A stretch of 33,271 bases of DNA, from positions 1 to 33,271 of the forward strand of contig CACYSQ010000024.1 of the NCBI GenBank assembly GCA_902777125.1. Direction: 5' to 3'. Positions 13,752 to 33,053 of this stretch are shown piece by piece. The notes beneath the pieces were generated by a model that saw only the letters and a program-made list of their open reading frames with translations, ran no database searches and was not told where the DNA came from. The stretch's first letter is position 1, and each line of letters begins with the position of its first letter. The translations under genes were made by a program, and so were the position numbers. Source of the stretch: Ruminococcus flavefaciens. GTDB taxonomy: Bacteria > Bacillota > Clostridia > Oscillospirales > Ruminococcaceae.

Positions 13752-14333
13752 TCATTCACCGTTTCCTTCATTCAGATAAGCGCAAAGCTCTCTCAGAGCC
13801 GCGCCTCTGTGGCTTATACTGTTCTTTTCGTCTGCGGAAAGCTCCGCCATTGTGCGGTCGCCGACCATGAAGACCGGGTCGTAGCCGAAGCCGTTGGAAC
13901 CTCTCTGCTCATAGCCGATGCTGCCCTCGCACCTGCCCTCAAAAACAGCGCTTCCGCTGTCCGTCATGAGGACAACATTGCACACGAACCTTGCCGTGCG
14001 CTCGTTTCCGGGGATATTTTCAAGCTCGGAAAGAAGCTTCGCGCACTCCTGTCCCTTCGGCGCATACCTTGCGGAATGCACTCCCGGACGTCCGCCGAGG
14101 GCGTCCACGCACAGACCGCTGTCGTCCGCGATGACCGGGAGACCGCAGGCTTCATACACTGCCCTTGCCTTTATCATGGCATTTTCCGCAAAGGTGCTGC
14201 CGTTCTCATCAGGGTCGCAGCTAACGCCTGCCTCCTGCTGGGAAAGCACCTGAATGCCCAGCGGACTGAGTATCTCCCTTGCCTCGCGGAGCTTGTTGGC
14301 ATTGTTTGTCGCCATAACGAGCTTATTCATCAT
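13752..14333 (-). CDS. rdgB: RdgB/HAM1 non-canonical purine NTP pyrophosphatase
   Basis: 193 residues from ATG 14333 (MMNKLVMATNNANKLREAREIL), with GAGGAG 7 nt upstream inside the end of ftsY. It removes ITP, dITP and XTP from the nucleotide pool. The motifs are TNNANK, the metal site GLPVIADDSGLCVDALGGRPGVHSARYA, GYEQRGSNGFGYDPVF, and the SHRGAALREL end. It overlaps ftsY by 11 nt, so translation is probably coupled. The longer open frame above 14333 reads antisense-like Arg/Ser text in the ftsY acidic tail and is not part of the gene. Confidence 0.95.
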   Translation of the reverse strand: MMNKLVMATNNANKLREAREILSPLGIQVLSQQEAGVSCDPDENGSTFAENAMIKARAVYEACGLPVIADDSGLCVDALGGRPGVHSARYAPKGQECAKLLSELENIPGNERTARFVCNVVLMTDSGSAVFEGRCEGSIGYEQRGSNGFGYDPVFMVGDRTMAELSADEKNSISHRGAALRELCAYLNEGNGE

Positions 14334-15792
14334 ATTCGTTCTCCTCGTCGGTATCGGCTTCCGTGTCCTCATCGGAGGCTTCGCCGTCTTCATCATCGGA
14401 CTGCTCCTCCTCTTCTTCCTCGTACTTCTTTCTGCCGAAAAGTCTGCTGAAGAATCCGCGCTTTTTCTTCTTTTCAGGCTCAGGCTGCGGCTCTTCCTCA
14501 GCTTCAGCCTCAGTCTCAGCGCTCTCAGACTCGTCATCGTCCTCAGAGGCATCTTCACCGCTCCAGTTCTCCATGTAATTCTCGTTGTAGACATAGCCTG
14601 TCTCGGAGGTCATGGTCTCGCCGTTGTCGGCAGGCTCGGCTGTATCAGCCTCAGAGCCGTTGTCCTGAGCGTAGGCTGTCTCGTAATCGGTATGACCGGT
14701 ATAGCTGATCTCACTGATAGTTTCAGGCTCATACGGAGCTTCGGATTCTTCCTCGTCCTCAGCTTCGTCTTCATCGTACTCGTCAGCGGCTTCGTCCTCG
14801 CCGTCCTCATAGCCTTCCTCGCCGGGTTCTTCCTCATCGAAGCCCTCTGTCTCCTCAGCCTCGTCCTCATCGCTGTCGGTATCGACATCGCTGAACAGCG
14901 CGTCAACGAAGGTGCGGCTGTCGAAGGGCTGGAGGTCGTCTATCTTCTCGCCCACGCCTATGAGCTTAACCGGAATGCCCAGCTCGTTCTTTATCGAGAT
15001 CACGATACCGCCCTTTGCAGTACCGTCGAGCTTTGTCAGGACGATACCCGTGATCGGCGCTGTTTCGCTGAAAAGCTTCGCCTGATTTACCGCATTCTGA
15101 CCTGTGGTAGCGTCAAGGACGAGCAGCACCTCGCGGGAACAGTCCTCCGCCTTTGAGTCGATGATACGGTTTATCTTCGCAAGCTCGTCCATGAGGTTCT
15201 TCTTGTTGTGGAGACGTCCTGCGGTATCAATTATAACGACGTCGCATTCACGCGCCTTTGCGGCTTCAAGGGCATCGTACACAACAGCGCCCGGATCAGA
15301 GCCCTCGGCGTGTTTAACTATGTCAACTCCGGCTCTCTGCGTCCATACCTCAAGCTGGTCTATAGCCGCAGCTCGGAAGGTATCTGCTGCCGCTACGATG
15401 ACTTTCTTGCCCTCCTGCTTGAACTGGTGGCAGAGCTTTCCGATAGTTGTGGTCTTGCCTGCGCCGTTTACGCCGATGACCATTATAACTGCCGGTGAGA
15501 GCGAGAGGTCGAGGCCTGTATCGTCGCCCATGATCTCGCCGATGACCTCATGGATAAGCTCCATTATCTCGCCGGGATCAGTTATGCCGCGCTCCTTGAT
15601 CTTCTTGCGGAGCCGGTCGCATATCTCCTCGGAGGTCTCAACTCCGATATCGCTCATTATCATTGCCTCCTCGATCTCCTCGAAAAGCTCCTCGTCGATC
15701 TTGGTGAAGGAGTTTGTTATCCTTCTGAGACGGTTGATGAATGAGTCCTTCGTCTTACGCAGTCCTGCTGCGATCTTAGCAAAAATTCCCAT
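14323..15792 (-). CDS. ftsY: Signal recognition particle receptor FtsY with C-terminal acidic/basic extension
   Basis: 489 residues from ATG 15792 (AGGAG 5 nt upstream). The NG GTPase domain is at the N-terminus: MGIFAKIAAGLRKTKDSF resembles the membrane-targeting helix before the N domain, G1 is GVNGAGKTTT (107-116), G3 is DTAGR (189-193), G4 is TKLDGTAKGG (253-262), and the catalytic core ends near residue 300. FtsY docks ribosome-SRP complexes at the membrane. Unlike the usual layout, in which an acidic domain precedes NG, there is nothing before NG. Residues 301-489 form an acidic tail with a basic, aromatic patch KKKKRGFFSRLFGRKKY (441-457) followed by more Glu/Asp. The tail is in the same frame, and its end overlaps rdgB. 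Confidence 0.95.
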   Translation of the reverse strand: MGIFAKIAAGLRKTKDSFINRLRRITNSFTKIDEELFEEIEEAMIMSDIGVETSEEICDRLRKKIKERGITDPGEIMELIHEVIGEIMGDDTGLDLSLSPAVIMVIGVNGAGKTTTIGKLCHQFKQEGKKVIVAAADTFRAAAIDQLEVWTQRAGVDIVKHAEGSDPGAVVYDALEAAKARECDVVIIDTAGRLHNKKNLMDELAKINRIIDSKAEDCSREVLLVLDATTGQNAVNQAKLFSETAPITGIVLTKLDGTAKGGIVISIKNELGIPVKLIGVGEKIDDLQPFDSRTFVDALFSDVDTDSDEDEAEETEGFDEEEPGEEGYEDGEDEAADEYDEDEAEDEEESEAPYEPETISEISYTGHTDYETAYAQDNGSEADTAEPADNGETMTSETGYVYNENYMENWSGEDASEDDDESESAETEAEAEEEPQPEPEKKKKRGFFSRLFGRKKYEEEEEEQSDDEDGEASDEDTEADTDEENEYDE

Positions 15793-15860
15793 AAATTCTC
15801 CTGTCTGCCGCAAGGCGGCATATATCATATATTCGCACGGTCAGCCGGAATGCGACAGGC

Positions 15861-30014: not shown

Positions 30015-33000
30015 ATGGAGAAAACGAAAAAGCTCCGTGTCAGAACGACATGGAAGCAGCGACTCCTCGGGAGCACTGCCGCCGCTGCGATTGCGGCAAC
30101 GAGCGTGCTTTCGTCGGTTCCGTTGAGTGCCGGCGCCGATGATATCGGCAAGGACGGGCTGCCAAACCTCAAAACGCCATATGAGGAATCCATATGGTAC
30201 CGTGGAAATCCACTCGGCGTCGCCGGCGATTTCCACATCTTTGCATTCGACTCATTCACTGACACCAACCACGTCAACGGTAACGTTGCTACCCCGCACC
30301 TGATAATCCAACCCGGTGCAAAGGGACCTTCACCGAACCAGTACGTCGGACGTCTTGTAAACGTCATATCCGAAGAACTTGATGTCCCCGACGGAGAGTT
30401 CAATATGGCGAAGATCCCTGATATCGTTCTCCCGCAGGACTATGAGCTCTATTCCTCCACCGGAAACAAGCTCAACTACCCCACGAACGTTTACAGCATG
30501 AAGGCTTATAAGGGCGCAAAAGACGATGAAACTGAAAATTTCGTCCTGACCCTCAATTCAAGCCTGCGTCAGGATCCTCTCAATATCCAGTCCCATTATG
30601 GTCACTACGCTGAGACCTTCCTGGATTTCGAGAAGATCAAGAAGGACTACGAGAAAAAGTCAGAAGAGTTCTCACACCTCGATGAAAGGGTAAAAACCAA
30701 GACGTACTCGCCTTCCGAGTACAACACAACGCTTGATATCGTGCTCGAGGACGAGGGTGAAAACGTTATAAACCTCAATATCAGCGACATCTGCAACCCT
30801 CAAGATATTATCAATCCTGATACCGGTGAGCTCACCCATGTCGGCGATACCACTATCAATATCAGGAACATCAATGCCGACAAGGTATCATTCAATGATT
30901 ATCAGGGCAACCCGGTCGACGGATACCGCTACAACGATGACCAGCACCTTATCCTCAATATCGACCTCGAAGGCCTGCCTGCCGCTGCTTTCGCCCCCTC
31001 GCACATCAACTACTACACCAAGGACGGCGTCGCTATCGAGATTGGCGGAGAGGAAATGCTCTACATCGGTTCAAACATTATCCTCAACTTCTACCACGGA
31101 AACGAATCCGCTGACACCCACCTCTGGCTGAACGAGCACGTTCTCGCCTCCGTTATCGCTCCTAACACTGACCTCCGCCTCAATGCCTCAAACGGTACCT
31201 TCATTGCGGATACTATCACAACCGTAAGAGAGACCCACATGGCTTACTTCATGGAGCCTATGAGCGATACAGATGTTACGGACGTCACAGTCAAGAAGAT
31301 CTGGGACGACGACGGAAAGGATCACTCGGAAGATAAGGTATCAGTTTCACTCTACCGTGCTATCAGAGGCGATATTGAGCCCGATGAGCTCGAAGCTCTC
31401 GCTAAGGAAGCCGATGAAAAGTACAAGGCTGACGTTATCTCCGAGAACGCCCGCTTCAGGGCTGAGAGCGAGGCTCTCCTGAATGCTTACGATTCGAGCA
31501 TTCCGTGGGACGATTTCGTATTCAGACCCGGTCAGCCTATGGCTCAGCTTGAGATCACAGATGAGGACGATCACGGTGCAGGCTTCGCTATTGCCGATGC
31601 TCCTTCGCACACCCTCCGCAGAACATGGGGTCAGGACAATGACGCTTTCATGATCAAGGAGGACGGTACGCTCTCGACTTCACTCTCGACAGGTCTCTAC
31701 AAGCTCAATAAGGTTACTTTCAACTTTGACTGGACTCAGAACCGCGAAACGCTTATCACCTTCTCCGTTCAGAAGGGTAAGGTCGTTCAGATCAACGACA
31801 TCTCCGCTGCTCCTGCCCATGCTCCTGCCCGCCAGGTAGAGCTTATCGACACTCAGACGCTCGATCAGGCCGGCAGCTGGGCTTATAAGTGGTCCAATCT
31901 CAAGCGTTTCAACGACGATAACTTCGTTACATATTACTATGTTCACGAAAATGATCCCCCCGCAGGCTACACTGTTTCATATGAAGGAAACGGTACAACA
32001 AGTATCAATCCTACTATCGAGATAACAAACTCCAAGGACGATACAACTACAACTACTACGACCACAACTACTACTACAACTACCACCACCACAACTACTA
32101 CTACCACTACCGTTATCACGACAGCAAAGATCAGGATAGACAAGCGCGATCTCCTCGGCAATGAGGTTGAAGGCGCTGAGCTCATTCTCACAGGCGTTGA
32201 TTCTGACGGCAAGGCTATCAACTTTGAAGCAGGCTGTCTCGAACTTGACGCTGACGCAATGCTGGTAAGCAATCACGGTCCCGAACTCAGATGGTACTCA
32301 GGAAAGGGTCCGTCAACAGTTACTCTCGGCGACGGTACATATACCCTCCACGAGGAAACTGCTCCTGTCGGCTATGAAGTAGCCACAGATATGATCTTCG
32401 TCATTGAAGACGGCAAGCTCACAACCGTAAATACCAAACCGGTTGAATCCGACGATGTTGTAATGATAGACAAGTCAGCTACAACAACGACGACCACTAC
32501 GACAACCACTACAACTACAACTACAACAACTACCACTACGACAACCACGACCACCACTACTACTACCACCACTACAACGACGACAACTACCACGACAACT
32601 ACTACCACTACTACAACGACGACAACAACTACTACGACCACCACGACTACGACAACCACTACTTCAACTACTACCACGACCACCACTACAACAACGACTA
32701 CGACGACAACTACCACTACTACCACAACGGCAACCGCCAAAATCAAGATCGACAAGCGCGATATCCTCGATAACGAGGTAGTCGGTGCAGAGCTCATTCT
32801 CAAGGGCGTTGACAAGGACAACAATCCTATCACTTTTGAGGAAGGCTGCATCGAGGTCGGAACAGGCGCTGAACTCGAATCAGGTCTGAACTCGAATCAG
32901 GTTCCGGTACCGAGCTCAAATGGAAGTCCGGTACATCTCCCACAGTTATCACTCTCACGGACGGTATCTATACCCTCCACGAGGAAGCTGCTCCCTCCGG

Positions 33001-33053
33001 TTACGAAAAGGCCACCGACATGGTATTCACCATCGAGGGCGGCAAGCTCGTAA
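30015..33053 (+). CDS. Secreted Thr-rich adhesin: choice-of-anchor A, Cna_B and SpaA-like repeats (frame broken)
   Basis: The literal reading frame is 1012 residues. A signal peptide (basic 1-18, hydrophobic 19-38, cut near SAGA-DD, 38-42) leads. Residues about 66-413 look like a choice-of-anchor A domain: GDFHIFAFDSFTDTNHVNGNVA and LASVIAPNTDLRLNASNGTFIADTI. A Cna_B domain starts at VTVKKIWDDDGKDHSEDKVSVSLYR (424-448) and ends with YYVHENDPPAGYTVSYEGNG...IEITNS (641-673). Between these parts sits an unusual 170-residue insert. Thr runs (677-699, 823-905) flank the first SpaA-like repeat (AKIRIDKRD...GTYTLHEETAPVGYE), likely an isopeptide-bonded stalk. From residue 958 the frame is wrong: a 17-bp duplication makes it end in Pro/Ser text at 33053. 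The anchor lies outside the window. Confidence 0.85.
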   Translation: MEKTKKLRVRTTWKQRLLGSTAAAAIAATSVLSSVPLSAGADDIGKDGLPNLKTPYEESIWYRGNPLGVAGDFHIFAFDSFTDTNHVNGNVATPHLIIQPGAKGPSPNQYVGRLVNVISEELDVPDGEFNMAKIPDIVLPQDYELYSSTGNKLNYPTNVYSMKAYKGAKDDETENFVLTLNSSLRQDPLNIQSHYGHYAETFLDFEKIKKDYEKKSEEFSHLDERVKTKTYSPSEYNTTLDIVLEDEGENVINLNISDICNPQDIINPDTGELTHVGDTTINIRNINADKVSFNDYQGNPVDGYRYNDDQHLILNIDLEGLPAAAFAPSHINYYTKDGVAIEIGGEEMLYIGSNIILNFYHGNESADTHLWLNEHVLASVIAPNTDLRLNASNGTFIADTITTVRETHMAYFMEPMSDTDVTDVTVKKIWDDDGKDHSEDKVSVSLYRAIRGDIEPDELEALAKEADEKYKADVISENARFRAESEALLNAYDSSIPWDDFVFRPGQPMAQLEITDEDDHGAGFAIADAPSHTLRRTWGQDNDAFMIKEDGTLSTSLSTGLYKLNKVTFNFDWTQNRETLITFSVQKGKVVQINDISAAPAHAPARQVELIDTQTLDQAGSWAYKWSNLKRFNDDNFVTYYYVHENDPPAGYTVSYEGNGTTSINPTIEITNSKDDTTTTTTTTTTTTTTTTTTTTTTTVITTAKIRIDKRDLLGNEVEGAELILTGVDSDGKAINFEAGCLELDADAMLVSNHGPELRWYSGKGPSTVTLGDGTYTLHEETAPVGYEVATDMIFVIEDGKLTTVNTKPVESDDVVMIDKSATTTTTTTTTTTTTTTTTTTTTTTTTTTTTTTTTTTTTTTTTTTTTTTTTTTTTTTTTTTTTSTTTTTTTTTTTTTTTTTTTTTATAKIKIDKRDILDNEVVGAELILKGVDKDNNPITFEEGCIEVGTGAELESGLNSNQVPVPSSNGSPVHLPQLSLSRTVSIPSTRKLLPPVTKRPPTWYSPSRAASS
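32043..32111 (+). repeat. Threonine run 1 (23 codons)
   Basis: Twenty-three consecutive Thr codons using ACA, ACT, ACC and ACG in no fixed order. It links the Cna_B domain to the first SpaA-like unit. Such linkers are often O-glycosylated, which is inference here. Confidence 0.9.
32124..32225 (+). repeat. SpaA-like repeat unit 1, first 102 nt
   Basis: Encodes AKIRIDKRDLLGNEVEGAEL and the residues after it. It aligns with units at 32736 and 33170 over the same 102 nt without gaps but is clearly more diverged than those two are from each other. Confidence 0.85.
32481..32729 (+). repeat. Threonine run 2 (82 Thr and one Ser)
   Basis: Eighty-three codons, all Thr except TCA (Ser) at 32664-32666. 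All four Thr codons are mixed along the run. The reverse strand shows a Val-rich open frame that is only a shadow of this run. Confidence 0.92.
32736..32837 (+). repeat. SpaA-like repeat unit 2, first 102 nt
   Basis: Encodes AKIKIDKRDILDNEVVGAEL and what follows. It differs from unit 3 at only three positions in 102, all silent (AAA/AAG, GAT/GAC, GGT/GGC). Confidence 0.9.
32869..32902 (+). repeat. 17-bp exact tandem duplication causing a frameshift
   Basis: CTGAACTCGAATCAGGT occurs at 32869-32885 and again at 32886-32902 with no gap. Removing one copy restores the reading ...AELESGSGTELKWKSGTSPTVITL..., which matches unit 1. With both copies the frame shifts and the protein stops at 33053. 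Confidence 0.93.

Follow-up and report, generated by a model that had tools for sequence, protein, structure and literature searches.

The FtsY protein encoded in the window, the whole stretch of 33,271 nt of Ruminococcus flavefaciens DNA that was analyzed, consists of an NG GTPase followed by a long acidic C-terminal tail, near the end of which lies a short basic-aromatic module that is conserved in the genus. This is the mirror image of a known arrangement, real and conserved, and apparently undescribed. The basic-aromatic end, the acidic disordered stretch and the N-terminal helix are all present, with their order alone differing from that of E. coli FtsY, and for this reason we take the tail to be a mirrored A-domain working by the same two-step logic, in which the N-terminal helix would be the stable anchor and the C-terminal module, held on an acidic leash, would make the first membrane contact (probability about 0.7). 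FtsY would then have membrane-binding helices at both ends. An earlier note made from the sequence had proposed such an arrangement, and its interpretation is supported overall; its division of the protein into an NG domain from residue 1 and an acidic tail at residues 301–489, with KKKKRGFFSRLFGRKKY at 441–457, was borne out when the protein was read (Table 1).

Table 1. Features of the ftsY gene; positions are those of the window.
Feature	Position	Strand	Remarks
ftsY, 489 aa	14323..15792	minus	stop codon 14323–14325; first residues MGIFAKIAAG
N-terminal helix, residues 1–28, MGIFAKIAAGLRKTKDSFINRLRRITNS	15709..15792	minus	counterpart of the alphaN1 membrane helix
NG GTPase domain, residues 1–300	14893..15792	minus	Pfam SRP54_N and SRP54; NCBIfam TIGR00064
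Acidic linker, hypervariable, predicted disordered, residues 301–440	14473..14892	minus	pLDDT 31–47 (AlphaFold2 block means); pN/pS 0.424
Basic-aromatic module KKKKRGFFSRLFGRKKY, conserved, residues 441–457	14422..14472	minus	46/53 same-genus FtsYs; pN/pS 0.127; helix 448–452
Additional acidic C-terminal extension after the module, residues 458–489	14326..14421	minus	>20 residues from the module's first glycine to the end in 3/63 sequences

The protein matches the NCBIfam ftsY model at 366.3 bits (cut-off 260.7) over residues 31–300 and is the only FtsY found in the assembly, a second match of 34% identity being an Ffh-like protein by its C-terminal part. An alternative ATG in the same frame at 15828 would add 12 residues upstream. 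Aspartate and glutamate make up 45% of residues 301–489, and no Pfam or NCBIfam family naming the tail was found among the best 25 of 43 and best 25 of 54 matches, respectively; scans for tandem repeats and promoters added nothing. A helix of the alphaN1 type precedes the N domain, spanning residues 3–28 in the AlphaFold2 model with modest confidence at its start (block mean pLDDT 50 and 62 in residues 1–20); it is amphipathic by hydrophobic moment, with AKIAAGLRKTK as its best-scoring basic amphipathic 11-mer, and it starts with methionine in all 62 full-length module-bearing FtsYs. A lipid role for this helix is suggested by homology to E. coli FtsY, as characterized in the available part of PMC5533587. 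The rarity of a Phe-Phe pair in the N-terminal helix of tailed FtsYs (2/62, against 28/48 in short ones) was considered as a compensation for the tail and discarded, since it tracks the tree too closely. The end of ftsY overlaps the start of the next gene, presumably encoding inosine/xanthosine triphosphatase from its start MNKLVMATNNANKL, by about 8–11 bases (14323–14333), and the codons GAC GAG GAG of the acidic end could act as the ribosome-binding site of that gene. Elsewhere in the window (30015–33053) an open frame of 1012 aa contains very long runs of threonine resembling the linkers of secreted surface proteins.

Searches of 59 genomes of the same genus gave an FtsY match in 53, all of which were read, and the module was counted by pattern within the last 60 residues. 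A complete tail with the module near its end is present in 46 of the 53, four others (L013, L015, L026 and L119) end inside the tail at a contig end, and three (L129, L133 and L136) have a short acidic tail without the module. One of the six genomes with no FtsY match (G005) has an FtsY-type tail piece, terminating in EKKKKRGFFSRLFGRKDEDDD, at the end of a contig stretch. An alignment of 63 distinct module sequences was drawn from same-genus and named loci (63 of the 64 qualifying sequences fitted the pattern, L061 being the exception). K-3, K-2 and F+2 are present in 63/63, and the remaining columns are G0 (60), F+1 (62), S+3 (55), R+4 (55), L+5 (58), F+6 (62) and G+7 (58). In 60/63 sequences, 20 residues or fewer separate the module's first glycine from the C-terminus; in the window FtsY the distance is 44 residues, making this protein one of the three with a longer acidic stretch behind the module. 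Linker length between NG and module ranges from 82 to 259 residues (62 sequences).

Among 29 non-overlapping pairs of relatives, which took in 58 of 62 sequences, pN/pS was 0.054 for NG, 0.424 for the linker and 0.127 for the module, the last value being inflated by one pair (L058-L059) that seems misaligned at the module (identity 0.46). The corresponding pS values were 0.52, 0.63 and 0.49, so that about half of the synonymous sites had changed. A low module pN/pS at high pS indicates that selection acts on the peptide and not on the DNA, and the module is under purifying selection at the protein level; constraint on the DNA itself was rejected as the cause of conservation, as third positions vary (GGC/GGA/GGT, CTT/CTG, AGA/CGT). 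Close relatives keep the C-terminal segment while the linker around it drifts, an outcome that speaks for the earlier note, which would have been refuted had they lost the segment. In 20,000 shuffles of the window tail, neither the motif nor an equally high-scoring basic amphipathic 11-mer appeared once.

The best 11-mers of the 63 module sequences have a mean hydrophobic moment of 0.46, compared with 0.41 for the C-terminal helix of E. coli MinD and 0.42 for the N-terminus of E. coli FtsY, and those of the window module carry a net charge of +4 to +6. AlphaFold2 places a five-residue helix (448–452) in the window module, at a block mean pLDDT of 57 versus 31–47 in the other tail blocks, and pLDDT is below 50 nearly throughout residues 302–435 and 453–485. 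Hydrophobic moment and charge fit an amphipathic membrane-targeting segment, but the helix covers five residues at modest pLDDT and helicity is weakly predicted. The module, which ends 32 residues before the end of the protein, is probably membrane-binding through contact with lipid.

A profile of this module, here called type A, was run on 13 genomes, nine of them of the same genus. In those nine, all matches below E 0.26 are FtsY or the FtsY-type tail piece of G005, and no match was found in G003, where FtsY is cut by a contig end. Use of the module as a general tag by this organism was rejected, as the next match in G000 reaches an E of only 1.57, in a 14-aa frame; nor does the genus share it with its best MinD-like ATPase, which in nine genus genomes (the present one included) ends without such a helix. 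E. coli FtsY matches the profile at residues 3–11 (KEKKRGFFS) with 13.8 bits (E 0.008 if scaled to 4300 proteins, FtsY and MinD being the two that were run), while the C-terminus of E. coli MinD, KKGFLKRLFGG, scores an insignificant 0.6 bits.

Across 392 Clostridia genomes, 16 have a profile match at E ≤0.01, the window among them, and about four of the 15 outside matches would be expected by chance at this threshold per genome. Two are FtsY N-termini, one with MATEKKKGFFSRLKEGLF, an acidic linker and NG (L231) and one with the module directly before NG (L233), and the profile of a C-terminal module thus detects the N-termini of FtsYs elsewhere, in line with the claim that the same type of module is found at the other end. 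Another is the C-terminus of an FtsA, KKKGFFGRLFGN, in another clostridium, and one is the C-terminus of a SecA-family protein, behind an acidic linker. The others are the C-termini of two MerR-like proteins (one scanned), a polyphosphate kinase and a DnaJ, and the N-terminus of a DUF4428 protein, for none of which do we know of a membrane anchor; the remaining six are internal or in short frames (three internal to glycosidase-like proteins, one of them scanned, one other internal match and two short frames). The SecA-family protein (L229), from a genome of the same family (G163), ends in an acidic stretch and PAKKGFFAKLFGKKD, the same type of end on another translocon partner; at 310 aa, the FtsY frame of this genome leaves no room for a tail. 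The MerR-type proteins (L228 and L234, same class) are 219 aa long and end in NKKRSLFSRLF(G/K)R. RacA is a DNA-binding protein anchored at the membrane, and by analogy this end might anchor a DNA-binding protein there.

Among the closest known systems is the A-domain of E. coli FtsY, a poorly conserved, acidic stretch that adjoins NG and is capped by KEKKRGFFS-like basic-aromatic residues (PMC5533587, available part). The E. coli N-terminus had been given correctly in the earlier note, as the MG1655 record has MAKEKKRGFFSWLGFGQKEQ, and the window FtsY has a basic-aromatic end motif like KEKKRGFFSW. In E. coli, however, the A-domain is N-terminal and joined to NG via alphaN1, whereas the acidic disordered segment of the window FtsY lies on the C-terminal side of NG and its two membrane elements sit at opposite ends of the protein. 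FtsYs with N-terminal extensions show the same basic-aromatic start, acidic linker and NG in the reverse order to the window protein (L231, L198 and L199 outside the order, L245 within it, L150 and L251 within the family). In the accessible text of PMC7987157, extended FtsY N-termini are given several independent origins and no conservation, and that text contains no description of a C-terminal module. No description of a C-terminal FtsY tail was found in the literature searched, the reach of which left out most subscription papers. FtsA and MinD, both cytoplasmic nucleotide-binding proteins, also carry a short C-terminal helix that is basic and amphipathic; they are different proteins with different jobs and have no long acidic linker. 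The C-terminal helix of FtsA is a membrane anchor (PMC3384640, available part), and mCherry fusions of this helix and of the FtsY amphipathic helix both bound supported membranes (PMC6158289, available part).

Different modules occupy the same end of FtsY in other clades, and some tails hold several modules, neither of which was foreseen in the earlier note. The type A module is KKKK(R/K)GFFSRLFGRK. Type B, GKFGFLFKEITFGKKKK, is found in other genera of the same family and is near-invariant across 12 aligned sequences, and type C, KRGFFGLFNRHS, in another family of the order; both resemble type A mainly in basic and aromatic character. The alpha-helical hydrophobic moment of type B is low (0.15–0.19), with no confident AlphaFold2 fold, and lipid contact would need another binding mode. 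In two tails (L210 and L212), a B-like stretch comes first and the end is A-like, KKK(K)SWFSFGKK, a possible link between types A and B, and the tails of L061 and L138 end in KKKRKWWQFGRKK and KKKRRFWPFGRE, respectively. By pattern count, 34/46 type A tails have one copy of the module, 11/46 two and 1/46 four, so that 12/46 genus members have two or more, and a looser window scan gives five in L120. In L120, L118, L125–L128, L130 and L132, the acidic linker bears several basic-aromatic modules along its length; the sequences found in multi-module tails are of at least three types (KKQGFFSKLF, RKQRFFSKFAI and RRKERINRFFREKK), and L120 holds three near-identical copies. Such tails may point to FtsY as a multivalent tether, an unlikely idea in which strings of stickers would concentrate translating ribosomes and SRP receptors in zones of the membrane, with the number of stickers tuned by lineage, perhaps to secretion load.

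Beyond the genus, an FtsY match was found in 156 of the 158 genomes of the family sample, and the 20 longest listed frames beyond those already in the set were fetched, 14 of which end in a C-terminal module and six of which are tail-less. At least 18/156 therefore have a C-terminal module (these 14, the window, two other genus members and G336), and most FtsYs among the matches listed have frames too short for such a tail. In the order sample (FtsY match in 292/297 genomes), 26 frames from beyond the genus were fetched out of the longer ones listed, in sets of 16 and 10: seven of the first 16 have a basic-aromatic end module, two (L139 and L145) a long tail without one and seven no such tail, and none of the further 10 has a C-terminal module. 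All genomes of the phylum sample gave a match (299/299), and 20 frames other than that of the window were taken from among the longest listed. None of them has a C-terminal tail; such tails are not general in long FtsYs of the phylum, all 20 being long through an N-terminal extension or upstream frame, and many of them show the mirror layout at the N-terminus. The module is not needed for SRP targeting in general, as 3/53 genus FtsYs have no module and most listed family frames are too short.

In NG trees, type C forms a distant clade (100/90), with numerous tail-less lineages separating it from types A and B, which suggests at least two gains of a C-terminal module, with repeated loss as an alternative; types A and B may share one origin, as hinted by the two tails that combine them. 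Left out of the NG tree were L148, sequences truncated at a contig end and four copies (L209, L217, L222 and L223), with type A thinned from 65 to 31 rows, and L242–L252 are in no tree. The 'tail' tally of the tree set is too low, as the pattern classes miss some modules (L067, L218, L061 and L138, tagged 'other', have basic-aromatic ends by eye). On whether the module had moved from the N-terminus or arisen anew, the two possibilities left side by side in the earlier note, the relatives lean towards a fresh gain at the C-terminus as the simpler reading, since 49 of the 50 tail-less relatives read lack an N-terminal extension of at least 30 residues; none of 62 full-length type A proteins has one. 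The exception is L150, which the NG tree places in neither the A nor the B group. It and its genus mate L251, of the same family, start with MGLFDRWKKKN and MGLFSRKKN, respectively, followed by a mixed-charge stretch before NG, and L245 (G316, same order) starts with MAFLGKLFGKKKK, after which come a long acidic repeat and NG, so that both mirror forms are present within one order. A move is the less simple reading, made conceivable by these N-terminal versions nearby. Linkers drift too fast for comparison.

A mechanism for the mirrored A-domain can be outlined from single-molecule work on E. coli FtsY (PMC5533587, available part), where the first 14 residues (alphaA1) give a Dynamic membrane mode, the alphaN1 helix at the A/NG junction gives a Stable mode, and the acidic A-domain hinders the Stable mode, the switch being driven by SRP. 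In the window FtsY, the C-terminal module would do the job of alphaA1, a first and quickly reversible contact with anionic lipid, and the acidic linker would keep the free receptor from settling on the membrane; SRP binding would then let the N-terminal helix insert, giving the stable, active state. The module would act from the other end of the chain than in E. coli, tethered by a leash of about 80–260 residues, and a tail with two to five modules would have tighter binding or form a bridge. Counting against this reading, the match to E. coli FtsY spans nine residues and the predicted helix five, some FtsYs of the genus have no module, several outside profile matches fall in proteins with no anchor known to us, and type B has a low helical moment.

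A different reading takes the module as a short linear motif that binds a membrane protein, such as SecYEG, YidC or another translocon part, with the linker as a spacer for finding the translocon. The near-invariant K-3, K-2 and F+2 (63/63) exceed what lipid binding alone needs, the profile match to a SecA-family protein in a family genome with a tail-less FtsY would fit, and the layout of a globular domain, variable linker and conserved C-terminal peptide (the layout alone being compared) is that of FtsZ, whose C-terminal peptide binds proteins. However, other clades carry unlike sequences at the same end (FLFKEITFGKKKK; GFFGLFNRHS), alike just in basic and aromatic character, a pattern more easily reconciled with a lipid surface than with a single protein pocket, and this makes a protein-binding motif rather unlikely. 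The opposite charges in one chain, a tail rich in acidic residues and one strongly basic patch, could also be taken for electrostatic self-inhibition, in which the module would fold onto the linker or NG and block SRP until the membrane or ribosome competes, and the E. coli A-domain is described as shielding the SRP site in the available part of a review (PMC8082313). This is very unlikely, as it leaves the conserved phenylalanines and leucine unexplained and two AlphaFold2 models give no confident docking of the tail on NG, which is weak evidence given that the tail is almost entirely below pLDDT 50 except for the type A module. That the module is a functionless basic amphipathic stretch of a slippage-prone charged tail, the caution attached to the earlier note, is hardly credible in view of the shuffles, the low module pN/pS and its retention in 46/53 genus members, even if some tails are repetitive and their lengths vary widely.

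FtsY brings protein-making ribosomes to the cell membrane, and in rumen and gut Ruminococcus it carries a conserved tag at its rear end that has a front-end look-alike in E. coli. With the mirrored arrangement, nature has run an experiment on a universal targeting machine, in the part of it that is understood least: if an A-domain may lie before or behind the GTPase, then it is the weak, leashed membrane contact and the acidic repulsion that matter, and not a fixed geometry beside alphaN1. The two membrane-binding steps, located at one end of the protein in E. coli, are separated here and hence individually testable. That unlike basic-aromatic modules occupy the same end in different clades, and that the family and the order also contain N-terminal versions, points to repeated selection for a leashed membrane contact.
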